64,000 nucleotides of DNA, taken from Erythrobacter sp. BLCC-B19 (lineage in GTDB: Bacteria; Pseudomonadota; Alphaproteobacteria; Sphingomonadales; Sphingomonadaceae). This document shows, piece by piece, positions 8,362 to 27,646 of the stretch (position 1 is the first letter of the stretch; every line of letters starts with the position of its first letter). Where the stretch lies: contig NZ_CP117516.1 in the NCBI RefSeq assembly GCF_028621955.1, forward strand, positions 1,386,001 to 1,450,000. Reading direction: 5' to 3'. A program made the translations under genes and the position numbers. The notes under the pieces are model-generated. The model ran no database searches and was not told the origin of the DNA. It saw only the letters and a list, made by a program, of their open reading frames with translations.

Positions 8362-8972
8362 GGCTTGCGGCTCCGGGTTGAGGGTCTGGTGCTGGCGGAA
8401 CGATCCGCGCCGCGATCGGTGCCCCCTTTGTCGGCGCGTTCGCCGTTGCGGTCGTCCGAACGGCGCTTGGGGCGCTCGTAGGTCTGCTTGGGGTTGGCGG
8501 CCTTGTGCGCGCGGGCGGCGGCTTTGCGCTCCTCGATCCGCTCGCGCATGACGAGGGTGAGCTGCCTCAGCACCGCGTCGATATCGGTGAGGATATCGCT
8601 GGCGGCGATGCGCATCACCTTGATCCCGACGCTTTCGAGGCTCTTGTCGCGGCGCTTGGCGAGGGTGTCGTTCTGCCCCTCCTCGTCGATCGCGAGCGCG
8701 AGGCCGAGGTTGTGGCAGTTGAAATCGACAATCGCCGAGCCGACCACCGCGTGGCGCTTGAAGGTGTAGCGGCCCATGTCGGCGGCGGCGAACTTGGCGG
8801 CGAGCGCCTTGTGCGCCTCGGACGAGTGCCGCCGCAGCTCGCGCGCCTGTTCGTGCAGGGCATCGAGCCGCTTCTCCGAAATCTCCCACCCACGGCCCTT
8901 CTTCTTGAGCGCAGGGGCTTCGGCGGAGGAGGCGGCCTCGGGGTTGAGGGCGAGGGTTTTGCGGGTGGTCAC
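8358..8972 (-). CDS. Divergent DUF559-like protein, probably catalytically impaired
   Basis: A 204-residue protein. Residues 40-145 align by eye with the DUF559 (Vsr-like) nuclease fold of the next gene upstream: a helical LHEQARELRRHSSEAHKAL region, then RYTFKRHAVVGSAIVDFNC matching the KFRRQ-IG-IVDFWC strand. The usual acidic IEVDGDTH centre reads LAIDEEGQND here, so the His and the spacing of the acidic residues are changed. The last 50 residues are a basic, Arg-rich tail. Both ends overlap neighbours by GTGA. It may be a pseudoenzyme or a DNA-binding relative of the adjacent paralogue. Confidence 0.6.
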   Translation of the reverse strand: MTTRKTLALNPEAASSAEAPALKKKGRGWEISEKRLDALHEQARELRRHSSEAHKALAAKFAAADMGRYTFKRHAVVGSAIVDFNCHNLGLALAIDEEGQNDTLAKRRDKSLESVGIKVMRIAASDILTDIDAVLRQLTLVMRERIEERKAAARAHKAANPKQTYERPKRRSDDRNGERADKGGTDRGADRSASTRPSTRSRKP

Positions 8973-9435
8973 TTTAGCCCCTCCCCTTCAGGGGAGGGGT
9001 TGGGGTGGGGGATAACCGCCTCACGCAAAGCCTCGCCGATCACGAACATCACCCCTTCAATATTTCCCATGACATCGGGATTGGTCACATGCAGCACTCG
9101 CACACCAAACTGCTTGAGATAGGCATCGCGCCGCGCATCCTTGTCCGGGTCGGAATGCGTGTCGCCGTCCACCTCGATGGCCAACTGCGCAGAAGGGCAC
9201 CAGAAATCGACGATGCAGCGACCGATCACTTCCTGACGGCGGAACTTGAAGCCCTCGAACCGACTTCCGGACACCTCGCGCCACAGCCGCTTCTCGGGTT
9301 CGGTGGGGTTGCCGCGCATTTCGCGAGCGCGCTGCTTCAACTCCGCCAAGGCGTTTGCGGATAGGCCCCACCCCCGGCCCCTCCCCTGAAGGGGAGGGGA
9401 GTTTGTGCGCTTTGCCGTATCGGTAGGCGTCAGGT

Positions 9436-9439
<4 letters not shown>
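8969..9439 (-). CDS. DUF559 (Vsr/MTES-like) endonuclease-fold protein
   Basis: A 156-residue protein with the canonical DUF559 motifs: [29 protein letters not shown] and AIEVDGDTH, followed by [14 protein letters not shown]. These belong to the restriction-endonuclease-like fold of very-short-patch-repair type enzymes; the true substrate is unknown for nearly all members. Its first and last dozen codons are made from two REP-like palindromes (9366-9399 and 8978-9011) that face each other, giving the tails [11 protein letters not shown] and [11 protein letters not shown]. The GTG at 9439 overlaps the sufB stop. It looks like an acquired unit inside the suf operon. Confidence 0.8.
8978..9011. 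repeat. REP-like palindrome, left copy
   Basis: CCCCTCCCC/GGGGAGGGG with a TTCA loop, followed by a G-rich tail TTGGGGTGGGGG. It forms the 3' end of the DUF559 gene (read leftward) and is the inverted counterpart of the copy at 9366-9399. These units are typical dispersed intergenic repeats of sphingomonads, but here both copies are translated. Confidence 0.7.
9366..9399. repeat. REP-like palindrome, right copy (inverted)
   Basis: The C-rich tail CCCCACCCCCGG precedes CCCCTCCCC/GGGGAGGGG with a TGAA loop. Read on the other strand it matches the left copy nearly base for base. The pair brackets the DUF559 core with about 355 bp between them. It supplies the N-terminal codons of that gene. Confidence 0.7.
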
Positions 9440-10913
<1,474 letters not shown>

Positions 10914-18903: not shown

Positions 18904-18999
18904 AGCGTTGAAGTCAGGCGGCAGATGCCGTCGCAAGCCGCAGCCCTTCCAAAAAATTCGGGGTGGCCCGCCTGCCTCCCGGCCCCTAAATCTGCGCCC

Positions 19000-19797
19000 A
19001 TGGCGACCGGCTGCGACACCCTGACCGACAAGGAGAAAGACGCGCTGCGCCTGCTCTTGCGCGGGCATGACGCCAAGTCTTCGGCGCGCGAGCTTGGGCT
19101 TTCGGTGCATACGGTCAACGAACGGCTGCGCGAGGCGCGGCGCAAGCTTGGCGTCACCAGCAGCCGCGAGGCGGCGCGGCGTTTGGCGGCAGAGGAGCGC
19201 GGCGGCACCCCCAAAACCTTGGGGGACAAGCCATTGGGGGATGCAGGCGAGCGCCACCCGGAGGCAGGCATGGCGGCATCCGCCACCCGGCGGTGGGCGT
19301 GGTTCGGCTTTGGGCCACGCCCTGCCCTCATCCTGATAGGAGCCGCGCTTATGTCGCTTGTTCTTGCCGCCCTGTTCCTCCCCGCCTCCCCGCTGGCGAT
19401 TGCCGCCCCTGCCGATGCCATGATCGAAACCGTCGCCGGCGCCGAAGCCCCACGCAAAGCTTCGAGCGAGGCCGAAGCGGCCGCCCGCGCCGCTGAAGAT
19501 TTCCTCAATCTGATCGATGAGAGCAAATGGGCCGAAAGCTATGCCGCCACCGGCGCGCAGTTCCGCAAGCTCAACTCGCTTGCGACCTGGAGCGAGGTGT
19601 CCACCCGCGTGCGCACCCCGCTTGGGCCGCTGCTGACCCGTAACCTCGTCACCAACGAATTCGTCCCCACCCCGCCCGACGGCACCCGGCTGGTGAAGTT
19701 CGCCAGCACCTATGCCGATGGCACCAACCAGGTCGAAAGCGTCAGCCTTGCCTTCGAGGATGGGGCGTGGCGGGTGGTCGGCATCGTCATCGGCTGA
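19000..19797 (+). CDS. LuxR-type HTH membrane protein with DUF4019 domain
   Basis: A 265-residue protein. Residues 8-65 are a GerE/LuxR helix-turn-helix (LTDKEKDALRLLLRG, then LGLSVHTVNERLREARRKLG). A linker and one membrane helix (about 108-130, PALILIGAALMSLVLAALF) follow. The C-terminal 110 residues, presumably periplasmic, match the DUF4019 pattern (LIDESKWAESYAATG ... FAS(T)YADGTNQVESVSL). This is a one-component design: outside domain, membrane helix, inside DNA-binding. No Asp-receiver domain is present. It lies directly upstream of the peroxidase-P450 gene in the same direction, separated by a 142-bp operator-rich gap. Confidence 0.78.
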   Translation: MATGCDTLTDKEKDALRLLLRGHDAKSSARELGLSVHTVNERLREARRKLGVTSSREAARRLAAEERGGTPKTLGDKPLGDAGERHPEAGMAASATRRWAWFGFGPRPALILIGAALMSLVLAALFLPASPLAIAAPADAMIETVAGAEAPRKASSEAEAAARAAEDFLNLIDESKWAESYAATGAQFRKLNSLATWSEVSTRVRTPLGPLLTRNLVTNEFVPTPPDGTRLVKFASTYADGTNQVESVSLAFEDGAWRVVGIVIG

Positions 19798-19896: not shown

Positions 19897-19927
19897 TGAT
19901 CGCCTAAGGGTTAACCATAGGCGATCA
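19897..19927. promoter_or_regulatory. 10-bp dyad directly upstream of the peroxidase-P450 gene
   Basis: TGATCGCCTA and TAGGCGATCA are perfect inverted arms around AGGGTTAACCA, which itself holds the palindrome GGTTAACC. The dyad ends 12 bp before the ATG, next to the AGGGGGG ribosome-binding site. It is the size and symmetry of a dimer operator, and as RNA it would form a strong hairpin next to the start. Confidence 0.6.
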
Positions 19928-19939
19928 GGGGGGACGCGC

Positions 19940-22900
19940 ATGAAGCACATCACATCGAAGACCATCGACGGCATTACCGATCTGGTGGTGATTGCGCCGA
20001 TCAAGGACGGCTTCATCGACGCCTTCGAGACCATCACCTATGCCTCGCGGCTCGATCTGGTGGCGGGCGCGCTCAACAAGCTGCGGGTTGCGGCGCGCGA
20101 GTTCGAACGGGTGGTGCCGTTCAGCGATGTGACCGAGCGCATCCTCAACCTGCTCGATTTCCGCGTCGGAGTGATGGATCGCGGCACCTTCGCCTTCGAC
20201 CGCGAAGGGGAAGATCACCTGAGACTGACCCCGCGCCGCTATCTCTATCTCACCGCCACCTTCGAAGGCGGGTTCGAGCCCTATATGCGCCAGATCTGGC
20301 GCCCGCTGGGGCCGTTCCTCGATCTGCTGTTCTGCAATTGCGAGGGCTACATCACCGCCACCGAGCACGGGTTCGAGGAATATATCCAGTGGGTGCGCGA
20401 CCATCAGATGGACAGCGCGATCTTCTACAGCACCACCGGGCTTTCGGTGCGCGATCACAAATATCTCTCGGCGCTCGAACGGGCCGACCGCAGCGGCGCG
20501 GATGATGCGCTGCGCACCGGGCTGACGATGCCGCACCCGGAAGACGAGGCGCTGGCCACCCGCGCCGTGCATCAGCGCAAGACCGTCGAGCTCGCCTTCG
20601 AGGCGCTCAATGTGCTGCACAAGCTGGCGGATCTCTACCCGCCGGAATGGATGACCGGCCCGGTCGGCGGGCCGAATGCGCTCAAGGAAGGGCACCGCTT
20701 GCTGCGCGCGACGCGCGACATCCTGCTGGGCTTCGAGCCGGTGCTGGCGGGGCTGGAGAAGCTGGCGGCGGCCAATCCCGGCGGCGATCAGGCGAAGCTG
20801 CTGAAGGCCTATGCCGTGCCGCTCGACTGGTATCGCACGGGGTGCCGCCATATCGAGGCGCTCGATGCTGCGGCGAGGCCGCTGCCCGATCCGCCGCTCA
20901 TCCTGGCCGAGGTGCAGGCCGGGATCCTCAAGCCCCACGGCCGCCGCGATACCCCGGTTCACCACGGCGCGCTGATGCTGCTGAGCGTGCGCAATGCCGA
21001 AAAGACGCGCGACTTCATCCGTGAGCTGATCGCGCGCGGGGTGCTGAGGTTCGAGGGGGATCCGACGGGCAATCCGGCAGCGCTGGTGGGCAATATCGCC
21101 TTCAGCGCGCACGGGCTGCTTGAAATGGGGATGTATCGCGACACGCTCGACCGCTTCCCGGCCGAGTTCCGCGAAGGGCTGGCGCAGCGCAGCGGGATTG
21201 TCGGCGATATGCGCGAAAACTACCCGCGCAACTGGACACTTCCCGAACGCAACGGCCCGGTGCTGATGGGGTTGGTGCCGGACGGCGTGCGCCTGCCGCC
21301 GGTGGCGCTCGAGGAGGTCGACATCGCGCTCCAGCTGCGCGGCATCGGGATGGAGGGCGAGGCCTTCCGCGCCGCTGCCCTCGCGCTGGTGAAGGTCGGG
21401 GCCGGTGCGGTTTCGCTGGAGGCGGCCGAATGGCTCCATGCGCGCTATGACGAGGAAGGCCGCTTCCGCGACCATTTCGGCTTCGTCGACGGGATCAGCC
21501 AGCCGCGCCCGCGTCAGCCTGATCTGCCCAATGACGGGTTGCCGCGCGACCGGGTGGCGCTGGGCGAGGTGCTGGCAGGCTTTGCCAATGACCGCGGCGA
21601 TGGCCCGCCCGATGTGTTCCGCGATCTCGATTCGCCCGATCGTCCGCGCGATGGCAACACCGCCTGGCGCACCCCCTATCGCAAGCGCGCCCTGAAGTTT
21701 CAGACCAATGGCAGCTATCTGGTGATCCGCAAGATCGGCGAGAATGTCGACGCGCTGGAGGCCTGGCTCGATGCCAACAAGGCCGCCGTCGCCTCTGCCA
21801 CGGGCTGGTGCGAGGGCGAAGCGCGCGCGCGGCTCAAGGCGGCGGTGATGGGGCGCGACGATGCCGGCCGCCCGCTGGTGCCGACGGCCTCGGCCCATCT
21901 CAACGACTTCGACTATCGCGGCGACGGTCAGGGGCTTGCCTGCCCGCTGTCGGCGCATATCCGCAGAGCCAATCCGCGCCGCACCGAGCGCGGGCTTCAG
22001 GCTCCGGTCGAAGTGCGGCGCGAGCTTGACCGGCCGACCCCGCGCCTGCTGCGCCGCGGGATGCTGTTCGGTGAAGGCGAAGGCGACACCGGCCCGCGCG
22101 GGCTGATGTTCATGGCCTATGCCGCCAGCATTGCCGAGCAATACGAGGTGATCCAGCGCTGGCTCAACGGCGGCAATCCCACCGATGTCGCCTCGGCCAA
22201 CAATGACCCGCTCACCGGCGTGCGCCCGCGCGACGGGGAGGGCGCGTTCCGCTTTCTGGCCGAGCGCACCGATCCGTCGGGTGCCAGGGTGCCGGTCGCC
22301 ATCAGCCTGCCGCTGCCGCCGCCCGACCAGCCGCTCGGCCTGCCCGGCGACCCGCCGAGCGAGCAGGGGCGCCATCCCTTCACGCCGCTCTATTGGGGTC
22401 TGTACCTCTTTGCCCCGGGCCGCGCGGCGCTGGCGATGATGACCGAGGAATGGCGCGGCGGCTATCAGCCGATCGAGCCGATGCTGGAGGAGGCGGTTGG
22501 CGGTGCCCAGATTCGCCGCATCCGCGAACTTCAAGACCCGCAGGTTCGCGCGGGCGAATGGAAGCGTCTGCTTGAAGACGTGCTGACCAAGGATCCGGCC
22601 GAGCGCGACATCAGCCCCCATGTCTGGGCGGCGATCCGTGACGAGGCGGGCGGGGTGCTCGATATCGAAGGCCCGGTCGGCATGATCCCGGAGACGATCG
22701 ACTGGAGCAATCCGAACTGGGATGAACAACGCGTGCTGATCGCCGCGGGGGAACGCCAGGTGATGAAGGTGCTGGCCGATTGGGACAACTTCACATCGGA
22801 AGAACAGCTGCGCCGGATCATCCCCAATGCCGGGCCGATCTATGTCACCCAGCAGCCCGATGATGACTACAAGGCGCTGTCGGGTACCTACACCTACCCC

Positions 22901-24064
22901 AAGCCCGATGGCACCATGGCCCAGCAGAAACTGTGCTATCATGCCGAGGCCGAAGCGACCAATACCGCGCTGCTCGCCTACCCCGAAGTCGCCGCCTTCC
23001 GCGCGGGCTATGCCGCAGGTTTTGAGGTGCTCAAGGCCCGCAAGCGGGCGGCCGAGGAGCTGAACCGCACCTTCTTCAAGCTCGAGATGCGGCGCGAGTA
23101 TTTCCAGCCTGCGCTCGCTGCGATCTGGAAGATCTGGTACGGCCTGCCTGACGATAAGGCGCTCCACATCGGCGGCTGGTCATGGAAACGGATCGTCGAC
23201 GAGGTGGTGGACGCGGCGCTCGAACGCAAGGAAGCCTTGTGCCCCGGCGATTTCATGGCGCCCTCGCGCGGGTCGGTGTTCCCCCGTCCCAATGCCGCAA
23301 TCCGCGGCTTTGCTCAGATGCACGGCAGCGCGATCCTCAAGGCCGGTCGCAATTTCGTCGCCCGCCACCGCGCCGATCCGAACCTCGAGCGCACGCCGCT
23401 GATCCAGAAGCTGTTCGAGACCACCCCGGATGATGAAGTGCTGGCGCGCAACATCATCGGCACCATGATCGGCGCGATTCCGCCGATGGAAGCCAATCTG
23501 CGCAACGTGCTGCTCGAATGGCTCCAGAGCGGGCGGCTGTGGCGGCATCAGGCGGCGCTGGTGCAGGCGCTGGGCGGAGGCTCGCCCAGTGAGCAGCCCG
23601 AGACCGCGCTCGATGTCCTCGCCGTGCCGGTCGCGCAGGCGATGTGCCTGCGGCCCGCGCCCGATATGCTGTTCCGCACCGCCAAGCGCGAGGCGACGAT
23701 CCCGCGCTATTCCACCAGTCCGCAACCCGATGCGGTCGCTGAGGAAGGCGACATGGTCATCGCCAGCCTCGTTTCGGCGAGTCAGCGGGCGCTGATCCGG
23801 GATTCGAGCGGAGCGGCCGGGATCGACGTGATCTTCGGCGGCAAGCGCACCAAGGGCGCGCAGGGCTACATCTATGATGACGGCAAGGTTCGTCCCGATC
23901 CGGCCGCCAGCGACTACACCCCGGTCCACGCCTGTCCGGCGCAGGCCATGGCGATGGGCGGGATGAAGGGCATCCTTGCAGCCTTGCTGGAAGCCGGACG
24001 GATCGAGGCGCTGCCCGCCTCGCTGATCCTGCGAATCAGCGACTGGGAACCGGTCGGCTCCTAG
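19940..24064 (+). CDS. DyP-type peroxidase fused to a P450-like domain
   Basis: A 1374-residue cytoplasmic protein with no signal or membrane segment. Residues 1-320 are unassigned. Residues 323-835 form a DyP-type haem peroxidase: GxxDG motif GFVDG with Asp517, proximal His673 in SAHIRRANPR, and distal Arg near 706 in RRGMLFG. From about 930 to the end the sequence reads like a cytochrome P450: an I-helix-like stretch near 1171-1190, a K-helix/LRPAP region near 1233-1246, and a Cys-ligand loop HACPAQAMAMG with Cys1332. The ExxR motif is not preserved (QAMC at 1233-1236) and no acid-Thr pair is seen in the I helix, so it may work as a peroxygenase or isomerase rather than a monooxygenase. The stop overlaps the convergent cyclase gene (CTAG). 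Confidence 0.8.
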   Translation: MKHITSKTIDGITDLVVIAPIKDGFIDAFETITYASRLDLVAGALNKLRVAAREFERVVPFSDVTERILNLLDFRVGVMDRGTFAFDREGEDHLRLTPRRYLYLTATFEGGFEPYMRQIWRPLGPFLDLLFCNCEGYITATEHGFEEYIQWVRDHQMDSAIFYSTTGLSVRDHKYLSALERADRSGADDALRTGLTMPHPEDEALATRAVHQRKTVELAFEALNVLHKLADLYPPEWMTGPVGGPNALKEGHRLLRATRDILLGFEPVLAGLEKLAAANPGGDQAKLLKAYAVPLDWYRTGCRHIEALDAAARPLPDPPLILAEVQAGILKPHGRRDTPVHHGALMLLSVRNAEKTRDFIRELIARGVLRFEGDPTGNPAALVGNIAFSAHGLLEMGMYRDTLDRFPAEFREGLAQRSGIVGDMRENYPRNWTLPERNGPVLMGLVPDGVRLPPVALEEVDIALQLRGIGMEGEAFRAAALALVKVGAGAVSLEAAEWLHARYDEEGRFRDHFGFVDGISQPRPRQPDLPNDGLPRDRVALGEVLAGFANDRGDGPPDVFRDLDSPDRPRDGNTAWRTPYRKRALKFQTNGSYLVIRKIGENVDALEAWLDANKAAVASATGWCEGEARARLKAAVMGRDDAGRPLVPTASAHLNDFDYRGDGQGLACPLSAHIRRANPRRTERGLQAPVEVRRELDRPTPRLLRRGMLFGEGEGDTGPRGLMFMAYAASIAEQYEVIQRWLNGGNPTDVASANNDPLTGVRPRDGEGAFRFLAERTDPSGARVPVAISLPLPPPDQPLGLPGDPPSEQGRHPFTPLYWGLYLFAPGRAALAMMTEEWRGGYQPIEPMLEEAVGGAQIRRIRELQDPQVRAGEWKRLLEDVLTKDPAERDISPHVWAAIRDEAGGVLDIEGPVGMIPETIDWSNPNWDEQRVLIAAGERQVMKVLADWDNFTSEEQLRRIIPNAGPIYVTQQPDDDYKALSGTYTYPKPDGTMAQQKLCYHAEAEATNTALLAYPEVAAFRAGYAAGFEVLKARKRAAEELNRTFFKLEMRREYFQPALAAIWKIWYGLPDDKALHIGGWSWKRIVDEVVDAALERKEALCPGDFMAPSRGSVFPRPNAAIRGFAQMHGSAILKAGRNFVARHRADPNLERTPLIQKLFETTPDDEVLARNIIGTMIGAIPPMEANLRNVLLEWLQSGRLWRHQAALVQALGGGSPSEQPETALDVLAVPVAQAMCLRPAPDMLFRTAKREATIPRYSTSPQPDAVAEEGDMVIASLVSASQRALIRDSSGAAGIDVIFGGKRTKGAQGYIYDDGKVRPDPAASDYTPVHACPAQAMAMGGMKGILAALLEAGRIEALPASLILRISDWEPVGS

Positions 24065-26913
24065 ACGAAGGACGGCATGGCAAGCGCGGTGAAGGCGGCA
24101 GCGGCACGGCCGCGCAGCGCTGCTGCCTCCGCCGCCTTGCCGCAGGCTGCCGCCAGATCCGCCGCGCAGACATCATTATGCGCGGTCTCGCTCTGCGAGA
24201 CCCGCAAGGCTGCCGCGCGCCGGGCAAAGGCGAGATAGCGTCCGGCGCGCGCGGCATCACTGCGCACCATCGCGGCCCGTGCCATCGCCCGCCAGCCCAT
24301 CGCCTCGCCCAACCGGTCGCCCGCGATGCGCGCCCGTGCGATCACCTGTCCCATGTACTGCCGGGCGAGCGGATGATCGCCGGTCGCGGTCATCGCTTCG
24401 ACCACCCAGCCGAACACCATCGAGACGTGCTGAAGGCTCGCCCCGCCGCCGAGAAACTCGCGCGCCACGGCTTCGAGCGCCGCCGCATCGCGCGGGTCGC
24501 CGCTGTGCCGCCAGCGGGCATAGGCGATCTGCGCGCGGGCGGTGCGGCTCTGCATCCGGGCGCGGCTGCGGTGACTGACAGCGAGCACAGCCTCGGCGGT
24601 GGCGATGGCCTCGTCCCACGCGCCCTCGGTCACCCGCGCGGCGGAACGGTAGAGCAGGATGCTCGCATTCATGGCGCTGGCGGGGTCGGCGAGGATGCGG
24701 TCGGCCTCGGCAAACAGCCCGGCGGCGCGGGCGTGATGGCCGCTCTGGGCGTTCAGGAAGGCGAAGCCCGCATAGGCATAGGCCGCAATCTCGCGGTCAC
24801 CGCGCGCCTGCGCCCCGGCGAGCGCGGGCAGGTGGGTCTCGAAGGCAGCGATGGCCTCGGCCACCCGTCCGCTGGCGAACAGCGAATGGGCAAGCTTGAT
24901 GCAGATCCGCGGCACATCGCCTTGTCGCCCCGCCCCCTTGGCCCGCTCGAGCGCCGCTTCAAGGTGACGAACCGATCGCTTGCCCAGCCCCGTGCCGTAG
25001 GCGATCATCCCCAGCCAGTATTCGGCGCGCTGCAAGTCGCGCGCGTCGCCATGCTGGGCGAGCTCGGCGCGCAGCCGTTCGAGCACGGCCAGCTGATCGG
25101 GGGCCGGATCGACGATGCAGGCGAGGCCGAACTTGTTGAGCAGCGCCCAGGCCGCATCACGCCGTGCAGCCGGGGTGGGCAGGCGCTCAATCAGGTCGAG
25201 CGCGGCGAGGTAATGCCCCTGCGCCCGGTCAAGCGCGCCCGCCGCCAGCGCTGCATCGCCCGCTTCGATCGCATAGGCCAGCCCCGTCCCCCCGCGCCCG
25301 GCGGCAACGGCATGATAGGCGAGGGCATCGAGCAACGCCTCGCGCCCACGCTCGGGGATGGCGGCTTCAAGGCTTGCCAGAACCTCGGCGTGGAGCAGTC
25401 GCCGCTCGTCCCGGCCAAGCCCGGCATAGAGCGCGTCGCGGGTCAGCCCGTGCTTGAAGCGATAGGTGCCCGGTGCCTCGCCCGGAAACAGGAAGTCGGC
25501 CGTCTGCAACCGGTCTAGCTGGTCGGCATCCAGCCCCGCCCCATGGAGCCGTTCGATCAGCCAGCCGGGCGCGATATGGCCGATCACCGCCGACAGCTTG
25601 AGCAGGTCACGGTCGGCCCGTTCCAGCCGGTCAAAGCGCGATTGCACCGACTGGTCGAACCACACCCCGCGCGGGTCGTGATCGGGCGCAGCGCCGCCGC
25701 TGGCAAAGGCGTGGCACAGCTCCTCGATCAGCAGCGGCGATCCGCCCGAGGCGCGTTCGATCCGGTCGACCACAAAGGGATCGGGCGAGGCCAGCAGCGC
25801 CTCGATCGTCGCGAGCGTCGCATCGCGCCCCAGCGGCGCCAGCGCGAGGACGGTGGCGGCATGGGCATCGGACAGGTCGAAGCTGGCCCCGCGCGAGGCG
25901 AGCACGCAGCGCAGCCGCGCGGGATCGGCCTCGCGCAGCAGCTGGGCGAGGAAATCGCGGCTCGCATCATCGGCCCATTGCCAGTCGTCGATCACCAGAA
26001 GCACCCGCGCCCCCAGCAGTGCGGCGCGCAAGGTGTCGGGTGTGTCGCCCGCGCTGCTTCCGGCAAGATGCTCGGCCGCCTGACTGAAGGCCTGCAAGGG
26101 CCGCGCGCTGAGATATGCCTCGCAATAGCCAAGCGCGACCTGCCAGCCATGTTCGGCCGCGTGCGCGGTGATGCGCGTCAGGAAGCGGCTCTTGCCGATG
26201 CCTGCCGGGCCGTGGAGGGCGAGTACAGCCGGGGTTTCCGCCGGGGTTGCCAGCCAGCGGGTGAAACGCTCCCACTCGGCGGTGCGGCCCTGGAACGGGG
26301 TCAGCCCGGCCTGCGCGCGCGCCTCATAACGCCGCGCGATCCCGCTGCGCCCGGTGACGCTCAGACATTCGAGCGGGGTGCGATGGCCCTTGGGCGTGAT
26401 CCGGCGCGGCTCGCCATGGGTGAAGAAGTGCCGCTCGGCCCCCAATGTCTCGGCGCTGACGAGGATCTCGCCGGGCGCAGCGGCATCGCAGATGCGCGCG
26501 GCGACATTGGTGGCATCGCCCAGCACCTCGTACTTGCCGCGCACCACATCGCCTTCGCGCATCAGGACCAGGCCGGCATGAATCCCGCTATGCAGCCGCA
26601 GCGTCAGATCGGGCGCGCCGAACACCGCCGCGAGCGTGCCGATCGCGGCGTGCATATCGAGCGCGGCTTCGGTTGCGCGCCGGCCTGCGTCCTCGTGGAC
26701 ATCGGGATAGCCGAAAAGGCACAGCATCCCGTCACCATCGACCCTCACGATATCGCCGCCATGGGCCGGGATCACCCGCTGGGCGATGGCGCGGATCTGG
26801 CCGATCACTTCGGCAAATTGCTCCGGCTCCAGCCCTGCTGCCAGCGCCGTGGAATCGCTGAGGTCGGCAAACAGCAGCGTCACCAGCCGCCGCTCCTGCG
26901 TGACGGAGTGCAT
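24061..26913 (-). CDS. Class III nucleotidyl cyclase with AAA/STAND ATPase and helical repeats
   Basis: A 950-residue signalling protein. Residues 5-185 are a class III cyclase domain: metal Asp17 in LLFADLSDST, second metal Asp61 in RVDGDGMLCLFG, and the transition-state Asn/Arg in GDATNVAARI. The usual adenine-selecting Lys position is Arg57. Residues 210-480 are an ATPase with Walker A GPAGIGKS and Walker B LLVIDDWQWAD. The remaining 450 residues are TPR-like helices. Such proteins couple a sensed ligand to cNMP output. It forms a two-gene operon with the Crp gene (1-base overlap), and its stop codon overlaps that of the peroxidase-P450 gene. Confidence 0.87.
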   Translation of the reverse strand: MHSVTQERRLVTLLFADLSDSTALAAGLEPEQFAEVIGQIRAIAQRVIPAHGGDIVRVDGDGMLCLFGYPDVHEDAGRRATEAALDMHAAIGTLAAVFGAPDLTLRLHSGIHAGLVLMREGDVVRGKYEVLGDATNVAARICDAAAPGEILVSAETLGAERHFFTHGEPRRITPKGHRTPLECLSVTGRSGIARRYEARAQAGLTPFQGRTAEWERFTRWLATPAETPAVLALHGPAGIGKSRFLTRITAHAAEHGWQVALGYCEAYLSARPLQAFSQAAEHLAGSSAGDTPDTLRAALLGARVLLVIDDWQWADDASRDFLAQLLREADPARLRCVLASRGASFDLSDAHAATVLALAPLGRDATLATIEALLASPDPFVVDRIERASGGSPLLIEELCHAFASGGAAPDHDPRGVWFDQSVQSRFDRLERADRDLLKLSAVIGHIAPGWLIERLHGAGLDADQLDRLQTADFLFPGEAPGTYRFKHGLTRDALYAGLGRDERRLLHAEVLASLEAAIPERGREALLDALAYHAVAAGRGGTGLAYAIEAGDAALAAGALDRAQGHYLAALDLIERLPTPAARRDAAWALLNKFGLACIVDPAPDQLAVLERLRAELAQHGDARDLQRAEYWLGMIAYGTGLGKRSVRHLEAALERAKGAGRQGDVPRICIKLAHSLFASGRVAEAIAAFETHLPALAGAQARGDREIAAYAYAGFAFLNAQSGHHARAAGLFAEADRILADPASAMNASILLYRSAARVTEGAWDEAIATAEAVLAVSHRSRARMQSRTARAQIAYARWRHSGDPRDAAALEAVAREFLGGGASLQHVSMVFGWVVEAMTATGDHPLARQYMGQVIARARIAGDRLGEAMGWRAMARAAMVRSDAARAGRYLAFARRAAALRVSQSETAHNDVCAADLAAACGKAAEAAALRGRAAAAFTALAMPSFV

Positions 26914-27608
26914 CAGCGTGAGAGTCGCTCGCGCAGCGCGGCAAGGCCGCTGCGCGAGGTCACCACCAGCTTGCGTCCGGTTTGTTCGAGGAGCCCGTCC
27001 TTGGCGAGCAACCGCATCTCGCGCGTCACCGCCTCGCGGTGCGTGCCGATCCGCGCGGCGAGATCGGCATGGGTCGGCATCCGCGCGATCTCGCTACGCT
27101 CGTCGTCGACAGCGTGGGCGGCCGCCAGCCGCATCAACTCGCTCACCAGCCGCGCCGCGACCGGCTGCGAGGCGAGCTCGACCGACTTTTCCGACAGGTT
27201 GCGCACCCGCGACACCAGCTGTGCGGCCATCCAGAACCCTGCGCCGGGCACTTCGACCAGAAATGTGCGGAACGCGGAGGCCGTGACCATCACCAGCGCG
27301 GAATCCTCCACCGCCGTGACATTGGCCGAACGCGGTCGCCCATCGATCGCGGCGAGCTCCCCGAACAGCCGCCCCGGCCCCATGTCGCGCAGGATCGTCT
27401 CGCGGCCATTGGCGGAAAAGACCGAGATGTTCACCCGGCCCGAGCGGATCAGATAGACATCGCTCGCTTCCGACCCTTGTGCGATCAGCATCTGGCCCTT
27501 GCGAGCGTGCACCCGCGCACCGCGCGCGATGAAGGCATCGGCAAGGGCTGGCGGGAGGGCTTCCTCCTCGTCCAGTCCGGCGATGGCGACTTGTCTGATA
27601 CGCTCCAT
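26913..27608 (-). CDS. Crp/Fnr-family transcriptional regulator
   Basis: A 231-residue regulator. The N-terminal cNMP-binding domain has the phosphate-binding cassette FGELAAIDGRPRSANV, with the Arg-Ser pair that contacts cyclic nucleotide in true Crp proteins. No Fe-S cysteines of Fnr type are present. The C-terminal winged helix reads THADLAARIGTHREAVTREMRLL. It starts at the ATG at 27608 and its stop shares a base with the cyclase start (TGATG). Together with the cyclase it makes a closed module: one gene makes the ligand, the other reads it. A Crp-like operator lies upstream. Confidence 0.9.
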   Translation of the reverse strand: MERIRQVAIAGLDEEEALPPALADAFIARGARVHARKGQMLIAQGSEASDVYLIRSGRVNISVFSANGRETILRDMGPGRLFGELAAIDGRPRSANVTAVEDSALVMVTASAFRTFLVEVPGAGFWMAAQLVSRVRNLSEKSVELASQPVAARLVSELMRLAAAHAVDDERSEIARMPTHADLAARIGTHREAVTREMRLLAKDGLLEQTGRKLVVTSRSGLAALRERLSR

Positions 27609-27646
27609 TGGGTGACCCCCGACCCTTGCCACAAGCGATGCACAAA

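Follow-up and report, generated by a model that had tools for sequence, protein, structure and literature searches.

The window analysed here, a stretch of 64,000 nucleotides from the genome of Erythrobacter sp. BLCC-B19 (contig NZ_CP117516.1, positions 1,386,001 to 1,450,000), encodes a protein of 1374 amino acids in which a dye-decolourising peroxidase (DyP) domain is followed by a domain with the fold of a cytochrome P450. We propose that this DyP–P450 fusion is a two-haem enzyme whose two parts act in turn on a hydroperoxide and which is tied to cyclic-nucleotide signalling, a proposal to which we give even chances. The fusion chain itself is real and old, since many long, near-full-length relatives exist across bacterial groups.

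Architecture and haem sites of the fusion protein

The fusion gene (19940–24064, plus strand, as are all features within it) was defined by its open frame and by homologue searches. It is a single uninterrupted frame of 1374 codons, present as one copy in a single-contig genome of 3.607 Mb. Residues 1–312 (19940–20875) form an N-terminal accessory domain, delimited by an AlphaFold2 (AF2) model and by HHalign comparison with genes of the split modules described below. It is homologous to the separate genes that we term type B and type A in those modules (HHalign probabilities 97.2 and 98.2, respectively), while HHalign found no homology between it and DyP (probability 0.0). The DyP domain (residues ~318–840; 20891–22459) was assigned from Pfam, NCBIfam and a structure match, and the P450-fold haem-thiolate domain (residues 905–1366; 22652–24037) from the AF2 model of residues 845–1374 together with structure and hidden Markov model (HMM) matches. 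AF2 was run on the two halves of the protein separately, and both models are confident (pTM 0.91 and 0.93) and resemble DyP and P450 structures. A preliminary description of this DNA had read one chain as combining a DyP with a domain whose Cys ligand is of P450 type, and this reading is borne out by the frame, the modelled halves and the conserved ligands; a P450 fold after residue 930, on which it hinged, is present in the model of residues 845–1374. The protein is probably cytoplasmic.

Family models give a divided result for the DyP half. The only Pfam match of the fusion protein above cut-off is the C-terminal half of DyP (PF20628, residues 588–744, 23.4 bits versus 20), and the NCBIfam DyP model TIGR01413 reaches 71.7 bits against a cut-off of 100.5. 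Its fold matches that of the Deinococcus DyP 8re3 (TM 0.77 by target, E 1.5e-24). Column counts for the active sites were taken from 74 rows (the window and 73 of the 78 other fused loci, five loci without an open reading frame (ORF) longer than 1100 aa being left out) or from 113 of 121 proteins, eight shorter ones being left out. Asp517 of the GXXDG motif, the distal acid (21488–21490), is found in 73 of 74 rows and is invariant in a 61-row alignment, while His673, the proximal haem ligand (21956–21958), and an invariant arginine, Arg705 (22052–22054), are found in 74 of 74; we take Arg705 to be the distal Arg of the DyP pattern. The complete DyP core that had been noted earlier, with Asp517, His673 and an Arg near 706, thus holds, with conserved ligands and the Arg at 705. 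By its Asp/His/Arg set, the DyP site reads as complete at the sequence level. Fold and active-site set are shared with long DyPs (Deinococcus 8re3, Amycolatopsis DyP2 4g2c and fungal D-type enzymes); in contrast to these, the DyP of the fusion is embedded in a multi-domain chain and is only ~18–23% identical to them in structural alignments. To our knowledge, the natural roles of DyP enzymes are mostly unsettled.

The P450 half keeps the thiolate ligand and has lost other hallmarks of the family. The Cys-ligand loop HACPA (23927–23941), which precedes helix L, contains Cys1332 (codon 23933–23935), which is conserved in 112 of 113 proteins, with one gap, and in 74/74 fused-locus rows, as is His1330 (74/74). 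In helix I, whose columns were placed from HMM alignments to CYP51 and CYP11A1 and read by eye, the sequence GAIPP (23471–23485) puts Pro1181 at the acid position and Pro1182 at the alcohol position. Proline at 1181 recurs in 109 of 113 proteins and in 67 of 74 fused-locus rows; residue 1182 is Pro in the clade of the window and Thr in 57 of 74 rows of the wider set. Helix K carries QAMC (residues 1233–1236; 23636–23647, from HMM alignments) in place of the P450 ExxR motif, in a variable column. The four ordinary P450s compared from the window's own genome all have Asp or Glu at the acid column (4/4). In split and reversed modules, the partner P450s have Pro at that column in 32/32, together with ExxR in 32/32 and HxC in 32/32. 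The Pfam P450 model PF00067 has no match to the window protein and one match among 48 fused members (E 0.13); it was passed by five of the six partner P450s tested. In structural searches, the domain is 11–17% identical to P450 structures including P450BioI (3eje), CYP109 and CYP51, from which it also differs by the absence of ExxR and of the I-helix acid and by lying below Pfam detection. Loss of the I-helix acid–alcohol pair is found among P450s whose chemistry is to use or to isomerise peroxides. Because ExxR is lost and Pro occupies the acid position, the fused domain probably does not work as an O2/NAD(P)H monooxygenase.

Fused, split and reversed modules

The protein search returned 166 relatives, at least 112 of which, among the 120 matches listed, are longer than 1150 aa. 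For many but not all of the listed relatives the alignment spans 99–100% of the query, at identities down to 31%. Scanning a single genome for each species recovered 78 fused loci besides the window, hence 79 in total, from Sphingomonadales, Burkholderiales (many Roseateles, Pelomonas and Variovorax), Bradyrhizobium and others, as well as from single metagenome-assembled genomes named Marinagarivorans, Deltaproteobacteria and Myxococcales. The preliminary description had proposed a search for this architecture in other Sphingomonadales, where the fusion does recur, as it does beyond them. In Variovorax sp. WS11 it sits, judging from the record title, on a plasmid, pVarWS11 (L060), and may be mobile. 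Where the listed relatives carry a source name, it reads 'deferrochelatase/peroxidase EfeB', 'Dyp-type peroxidase' or just hypothetical protein, and the P450 half thus apparently goes unnamed in these annotations.

The same parts are also found in other arrangements. A profile of the C-terminal domain matched 19 of 398 genomes of the phylum, several of the matches probably being ordinary P450s; among the six of these genomes whose surroundings we inspected besides the window, a DyP was fused or nearby in 6/6, and the 12 others may represent ordinary P450s. A match of the P450 region in G011 was judged to be due to chance, the protein being helicase-like by eye. Three genomes of the window's genus (G022, G024 and G025) contain separate type A, type B (the homologue of the fusion's N-terminus) and DyP genes, followed by a convergent P450 and cyclase plus a Crp-like gene. 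In G209 the domain order is N–DyP–P450–GDSL, and in G385 and G292 one protein of ~1530 aa has the reversed order of P450, middle part, type A and DyP. Reversed fusions of this kind, with 1426–1535 aa, were found at ten loci (L107, L108, L120, L125, L126, L130, L138, L141, L143 and L147).

An order-wide search with the window protein gave matches in 53 of 396 genomes, and its strongest places supplied 40 same-order regions (38 genomes), without the window, the full-length fusion G555:C82, G038 (L115, no P450) and G083 (L116, P450); L156 and L157 duplicate L009 and L012. At a threshold of 100 bits, a module P450 was fused or nearby in 26 of the 40 regions. In four more (L135, L136, L139 and L145), P450-like genes that are homologous to one another lie between cyclase and DyP, with 38.3 bits to PF00067 in L135, and L149 has a weak candidate of 15 bits with no Pfam match. 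Canonical DyP loci of the same order, taken as a control, had a P450 in 0/7, a small set in which some regions are short (9–17 kb); the module P450 profile does find the ordinary P450 ORFs compared from the window's genome (4/4, at 32–89 bits), so that the zero carries weight. As a rough chance expectation, seven P450s per 3.6 Mb, as in the window's genome, would place ~1.3 in 40 stretches of 17 kb. Distances among the DyPs and among the P450s of split and reversed modules correlate (r 0.79, n=32), to which shared descent contributes. Homologous genes for a regulator-like protein containing TPR lie at 13 split or reversed loci, and the reversed fusions L120, L125, L126, L138 and L143 adjoin genes for an extracytoplasmic function (ECF) sigma factor, a small unknown protein and a subtilase-family protein.

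Neighbouring genes

The most constant neighbour of the fusion is a signalling gene. In the window, a class III cyclase–AAA_16 protein of 950 aa (24061–26913, minus strand, by Pfam) is encoded convergently with a four-base overlap with the fusion gene, and a Crp/Fnr-family regulator with a domain for binding cyclic nucleotide monophosphates (cNMP; 26913–27632, minus strand, by Pfam) overlaps the cyclase start by one base. The two likely form one operon, the cyclase appears to be STAND-type, and the regulator carries a Crp-type DNA-binding domain (Pfam). Guanylate_cyc and AAA_16 are the Pfam matches of the window cyclase, and 4/4 other cyclases scanned have the same plus TPR matches; the window's genome has three PF00211 genes in total. 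A cyclase homologue is present downstream and always on the opposite strand in 68 of the 79 fused loci, and in 51 loci the stop codons of fusion and cyclase are at most 200 bases apart or the genes overlap. Eight of the 11 fused loci without it end within 1.2 kb of the fusion gene. Frames inside fusion and cyclase aside, no other neighbour family is nearly as recurrent in the fused loci, as read by eye from positions. Catalytic residues are kept among non-gap rows: D17 (64/64) and D61 (64/65), which we take to be the metal-binding Asp residues, and N136 (61/65) and R140 (55/65), presumably the transition-state Asn and Arg. What we take to be the position of the usual base-selecting Lys is Arg in 57/65. 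Distances among the fusions and among the cyclases correlate closely (Mantel r 0.92, n=66; 0/2000 permutations reach r). The Crp-like gene was seen in the fetched flanks of 20 of the 79 fused loci, mainly alphaproteobacterial and not always adjoining the cyclase. The 40 same-order regions have a cyclase in 10 and a Crp-like gene in nine.

Lipase genes of three kinds accompany the modules in several lineages. A GDSL-type domain is found in 15 of 79 fused loci, fused in 11 and encoded by the next gene in four; its profile was built from these 15 copies, which therefore match by construction. GDSW, GGND and a C-terminal His are present in 15/15 copies, and the Pfam GDSL model was above cut-off in one of four tested (L030). 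Independent relatives of the GDSL domain lie a few kb upstream of the fusion in L034 (3261–4193), L042 (151–1038) and L080 (1723–2619). A patatin (PF01734, E 2.2e-32) is encoded next to the P450 in L121, with homologues in L129, L134 and L142, and a Tle1-like (PF09994) lipase gene lies next to the split module in L112 (7712–8740). A patatin-type protein is also encoded near the DyP of L154.

Catalase-like genes, on the other hand, mark DyP loci that have no P450. Seven of the nine same-order regions without a P450 have such a gene directly beside the DyP genes (L144, L148, L150–L153 and L155). The Pfam catalase model was passed in L153 and L155 (102 and 99 bits) and stayed below its cut-off of 25 in L150 (21.3) and L144 (20.1); L148, L151 and L152 were called catalase-like through homology to the others. 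With five of the proteins as queries, these families were found at those seven of the 51 split or reversed loci, at one of 79 fused loci (L056) and at 0/7 control loci, and therefore they generally do not accompany module P450s. The nearest PDB chain of the L155 protein is 3e4w (E 3.2e-37), while the only PDB matches of the L151 protein are weak ones to coral allene oxide synthase–lipoxygenase (1u5u/3dy5, E 0.042 and 0.43). Beside the DyP/catalase-like pair of L155 is a gene (8833–10785) whose product has a TIR-like N-terminus by eye.

The acyl-CoA synthetase near the fusion, which had earlier been taken as a hint at fatty-acyl substrates, finds no support in that role. Homologues (E ≤ 1e-20) are present in four other fused loci, but just one of these, L009 (= L156), a sister locus with a syntenic neighbourhood, has the gene at the same place, so that we rejected it as a functional neighbour. 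The cyclase, Crp-like, lipase and catalase-like genes tell more about function.

Proposed mechanism, alternatives and known systems

In the proposed mechanism, the DyP domain with its His-ligated haem would make or handle either a peroxide or a hydroperoxide, perhaps that of a lipid. The thiolate haem would rearrange it or draw on it as an oxidant, needing neither O2 activation nor a redox partner. Haem binding, the order of reactions and a lipid substrate are putative elements of this scheme. It is plausible that a peroxide intermediate passes between the two haem centres; such a transfer is favoured because the P450 lacks O2-activation residues and because the parts recur fused, reversed and split. 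Sequential hydroperoxide chemistry also fits the presence of a DyP beside the P450 part at the loci inspected, the catalase-like gene in its stead at most P450-less loci and the lipases of several lineages. The enzyme would be linked to a cyclic-nucleotide circuit via the opposite-strand cyclase and, in 20 of the 79 loci, the Crp-like gene. These signalling neighbours suggest that the reaction is controlled by, or feeds, such a circuit, and the direction might be either: the cNMP could control the enzyme, or the product could control the cyclase.

Several observations weigh against this proposal. Most other fused proteins (57/74) have Thr at 1182, the same as ordinary P450s, and in structure the P450 domain comes closest to ordinary monooxygenases rather than to hydroperoxide isomerases. 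Without ExxR and below Pfam detection, the fused domain could be degenerate. Two of the 40 same-order regions (L132 and L154) and L115 have a DyP with neither a detected P450 nor a catalase-like gene. As to signalling, L052, L057 and L082 have room for a cyclase yet are without it, the cyclase is present in 10/40 same-order regions only, and the Mantel r of 0.92 reflects common descent besides coupling. Lipase genes vary between lineages, and GDSL, of which none was seen in the window, is fused or adjacent at only 15/79 fused genes.

A more elaborate version of the proposal is a bacterial equivalent of the eicosanoid/oxylipin cascade, made of unrelated parts. In it, a lipase (GDSL, patatin or Tle1-like) would free a lipid, DyP would form or process the hydroperoxide, the Pro-signature P450 or, at other loci, the catalase-like protein would isomerise it, and a STAND-gated cyclase with a Crp-type cNMP receptor would read out the product. 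We regard this full cascade as conceivable but doubtful.

Among the alternatives, the P450 domain might be an H2O2-driven peroxygenase that hydroxylates a non-lipid substrate by the peroxide shunt, with DyP either buffering H2O2 or completing the product's oxidation. By family, DyPs are enzymes of H2O2. Pfam assigned none of the 10 window proteins scanned to a ferredoxin or ferredoxin-reductase family, three of them having no match at all, and a crude ferredoxin-motif scan of small ORFs matched seven of 79 fused and seven of 51 other loci. CYP152 peroxygenases carry an Arg-Pro pair at helix I, which the Pro at the acid position recalls; however, no Arg precedes the Pro in the fusion P450. Moreover, three recurrent lipase kinds and the catalase-like genes at P450-less loci suit hydroperoxide metabolism better, and the sole PDB match of one catalase-like protein, weak as it is (E 0.042), is the coral allene oxide synthase–lipoxygenase. 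We consider the peroxygenase a tentative option that is rather improbable.

It is unlikely that the fusion is a haem sensor, in which a degenerate P450 domain would bind a ligand or redox signal and report peroxide stress to the cyclase. The loss of ExxR and the signalling protein as the most constant neighbour would agree with such a role, but the ligand loop and the Pro signature are strongly conserved, all 32 partner P450s from split or reversed modules retain ExxR, and the DyP site appears complete. Pycsar-type anti-phage or stress-defence signalling with the fusion as effector is very improbable. Among PADLOC models, those of PycC do match the window cyclase (best E 4.9e-15) and those of cNMP-binding effectors the Crp-like protein (best E 5.4e-19), and the Arg in 57/65 cyclases at what is presumably the base-selecting position would also agree. 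However, what the models match are the common catalytic and cNMP-binding domains, PADLOC gave nothing for the fusion, and the Crp-like protein has a Crp-type DNA-binding domain. The Pfam matches of the fusion, the cyclase and the Crp-like protein include no killing domain. Lastly, an artefact in which two unrelated genes were merged by a frameshift or an assembly join, a concern raised in the preliminary description, has a vanishingly small probability, as no sign of either was seen, the genome is a single contig and at least 112 homologues longer than 1150 aa were found among the matches listed, with long homologues in independent named genomes.

Returning to the sequential two-haem enzyme, its closest parallels are fungal. 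PMC13049297 and PMC4420034 describe fungal dioxygenase–P450 fusions (Ppo/linoleate diol synthase and allene oxide synthase), and PMC5919972 a further peroxidase–P450 fusion, the oomycete CYP5619. As far as these texts go, the fungal proteins are likewise two-haem chains with an N-terminal peroxidase-type and a C-terminal P450 domain; HxC in the Cys loop is shared as well, and their P450s are termed self-sufficient (both in PMC13049297). The fusion belongs with these peroxidase–P450 two-haem fusions, and what is new is the different peroxidase, the divergent P450 and the new partners. The peroxidase–cyclooxygenase superfamily of the fungal proteins contrasts with the DyP found here by NCBIfam and structure match, in agreement with the earlier remark that the peroxidase type differs from that of fungal Ppo enzymes. 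The N-terminal accessory domain, the loss of ExxR, the I-helix Pro and the cyclase neighbour further set the bacterial fusion apart, for which sequential chemistry like that of the fungal fusions is a proposal. Among the chains of coral allene oxide synthase–lipoxygenase and of catalase-related proteins are the nearest PDB matches of the catalase-like genes in L151 (weak) and L155; in contrast to the coral protein, the catalase-like genes of P450-less loci are unfused and no lipoxygenase was seen there. The oxylipin system of Pseudomonas aeruginosa shows that oxidised fatty acids can serve bacteria as signals; it differs in relying on a diol synthase pathway, with no DyP or P450 mentioned in the accessible portions of PMC6377657 and PMC5155153. 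A DyP–P450 fusion was not found in the literature searched, a weak absence given that most subscription papers lay beyond that search.

The natural peroxidase–P450 fusions that we met in papers are those of fungi and oomycetes, and their peroxidases are of the cyclooxygenase type. Bacterial DyP–P450 proteins in two opposite orders, plus split forms, would make the coupling of a His-haem to a thiolate-haem a repeated solution. The fusion also gives context to DyP enzymes, and its P450 might work without a reductase. Were the lipid reading true, common environmental bacteria would possess a signalling-lipid pathway with a cyclic-nucleotide link, and the fusion may be a bacterial counterpart of the fungal and animal enzymes that make lipid signals.

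Two minor features of the window adjoin or overlap the fusion gene. Upstream, a protein with a LuxR-type helix-turn-helix and DUF4019 (18925–19797, plus strand, by Pfam) was rejected as a module member, having no homologue (E ≤ 1e-20) in the 78 other fused or 51 split and reversed loci. Antisense to the fusion gene runs a frame of 1080 codons (19925–23167, minus strand) with no evidence for a gene, such frames being common at high GC.

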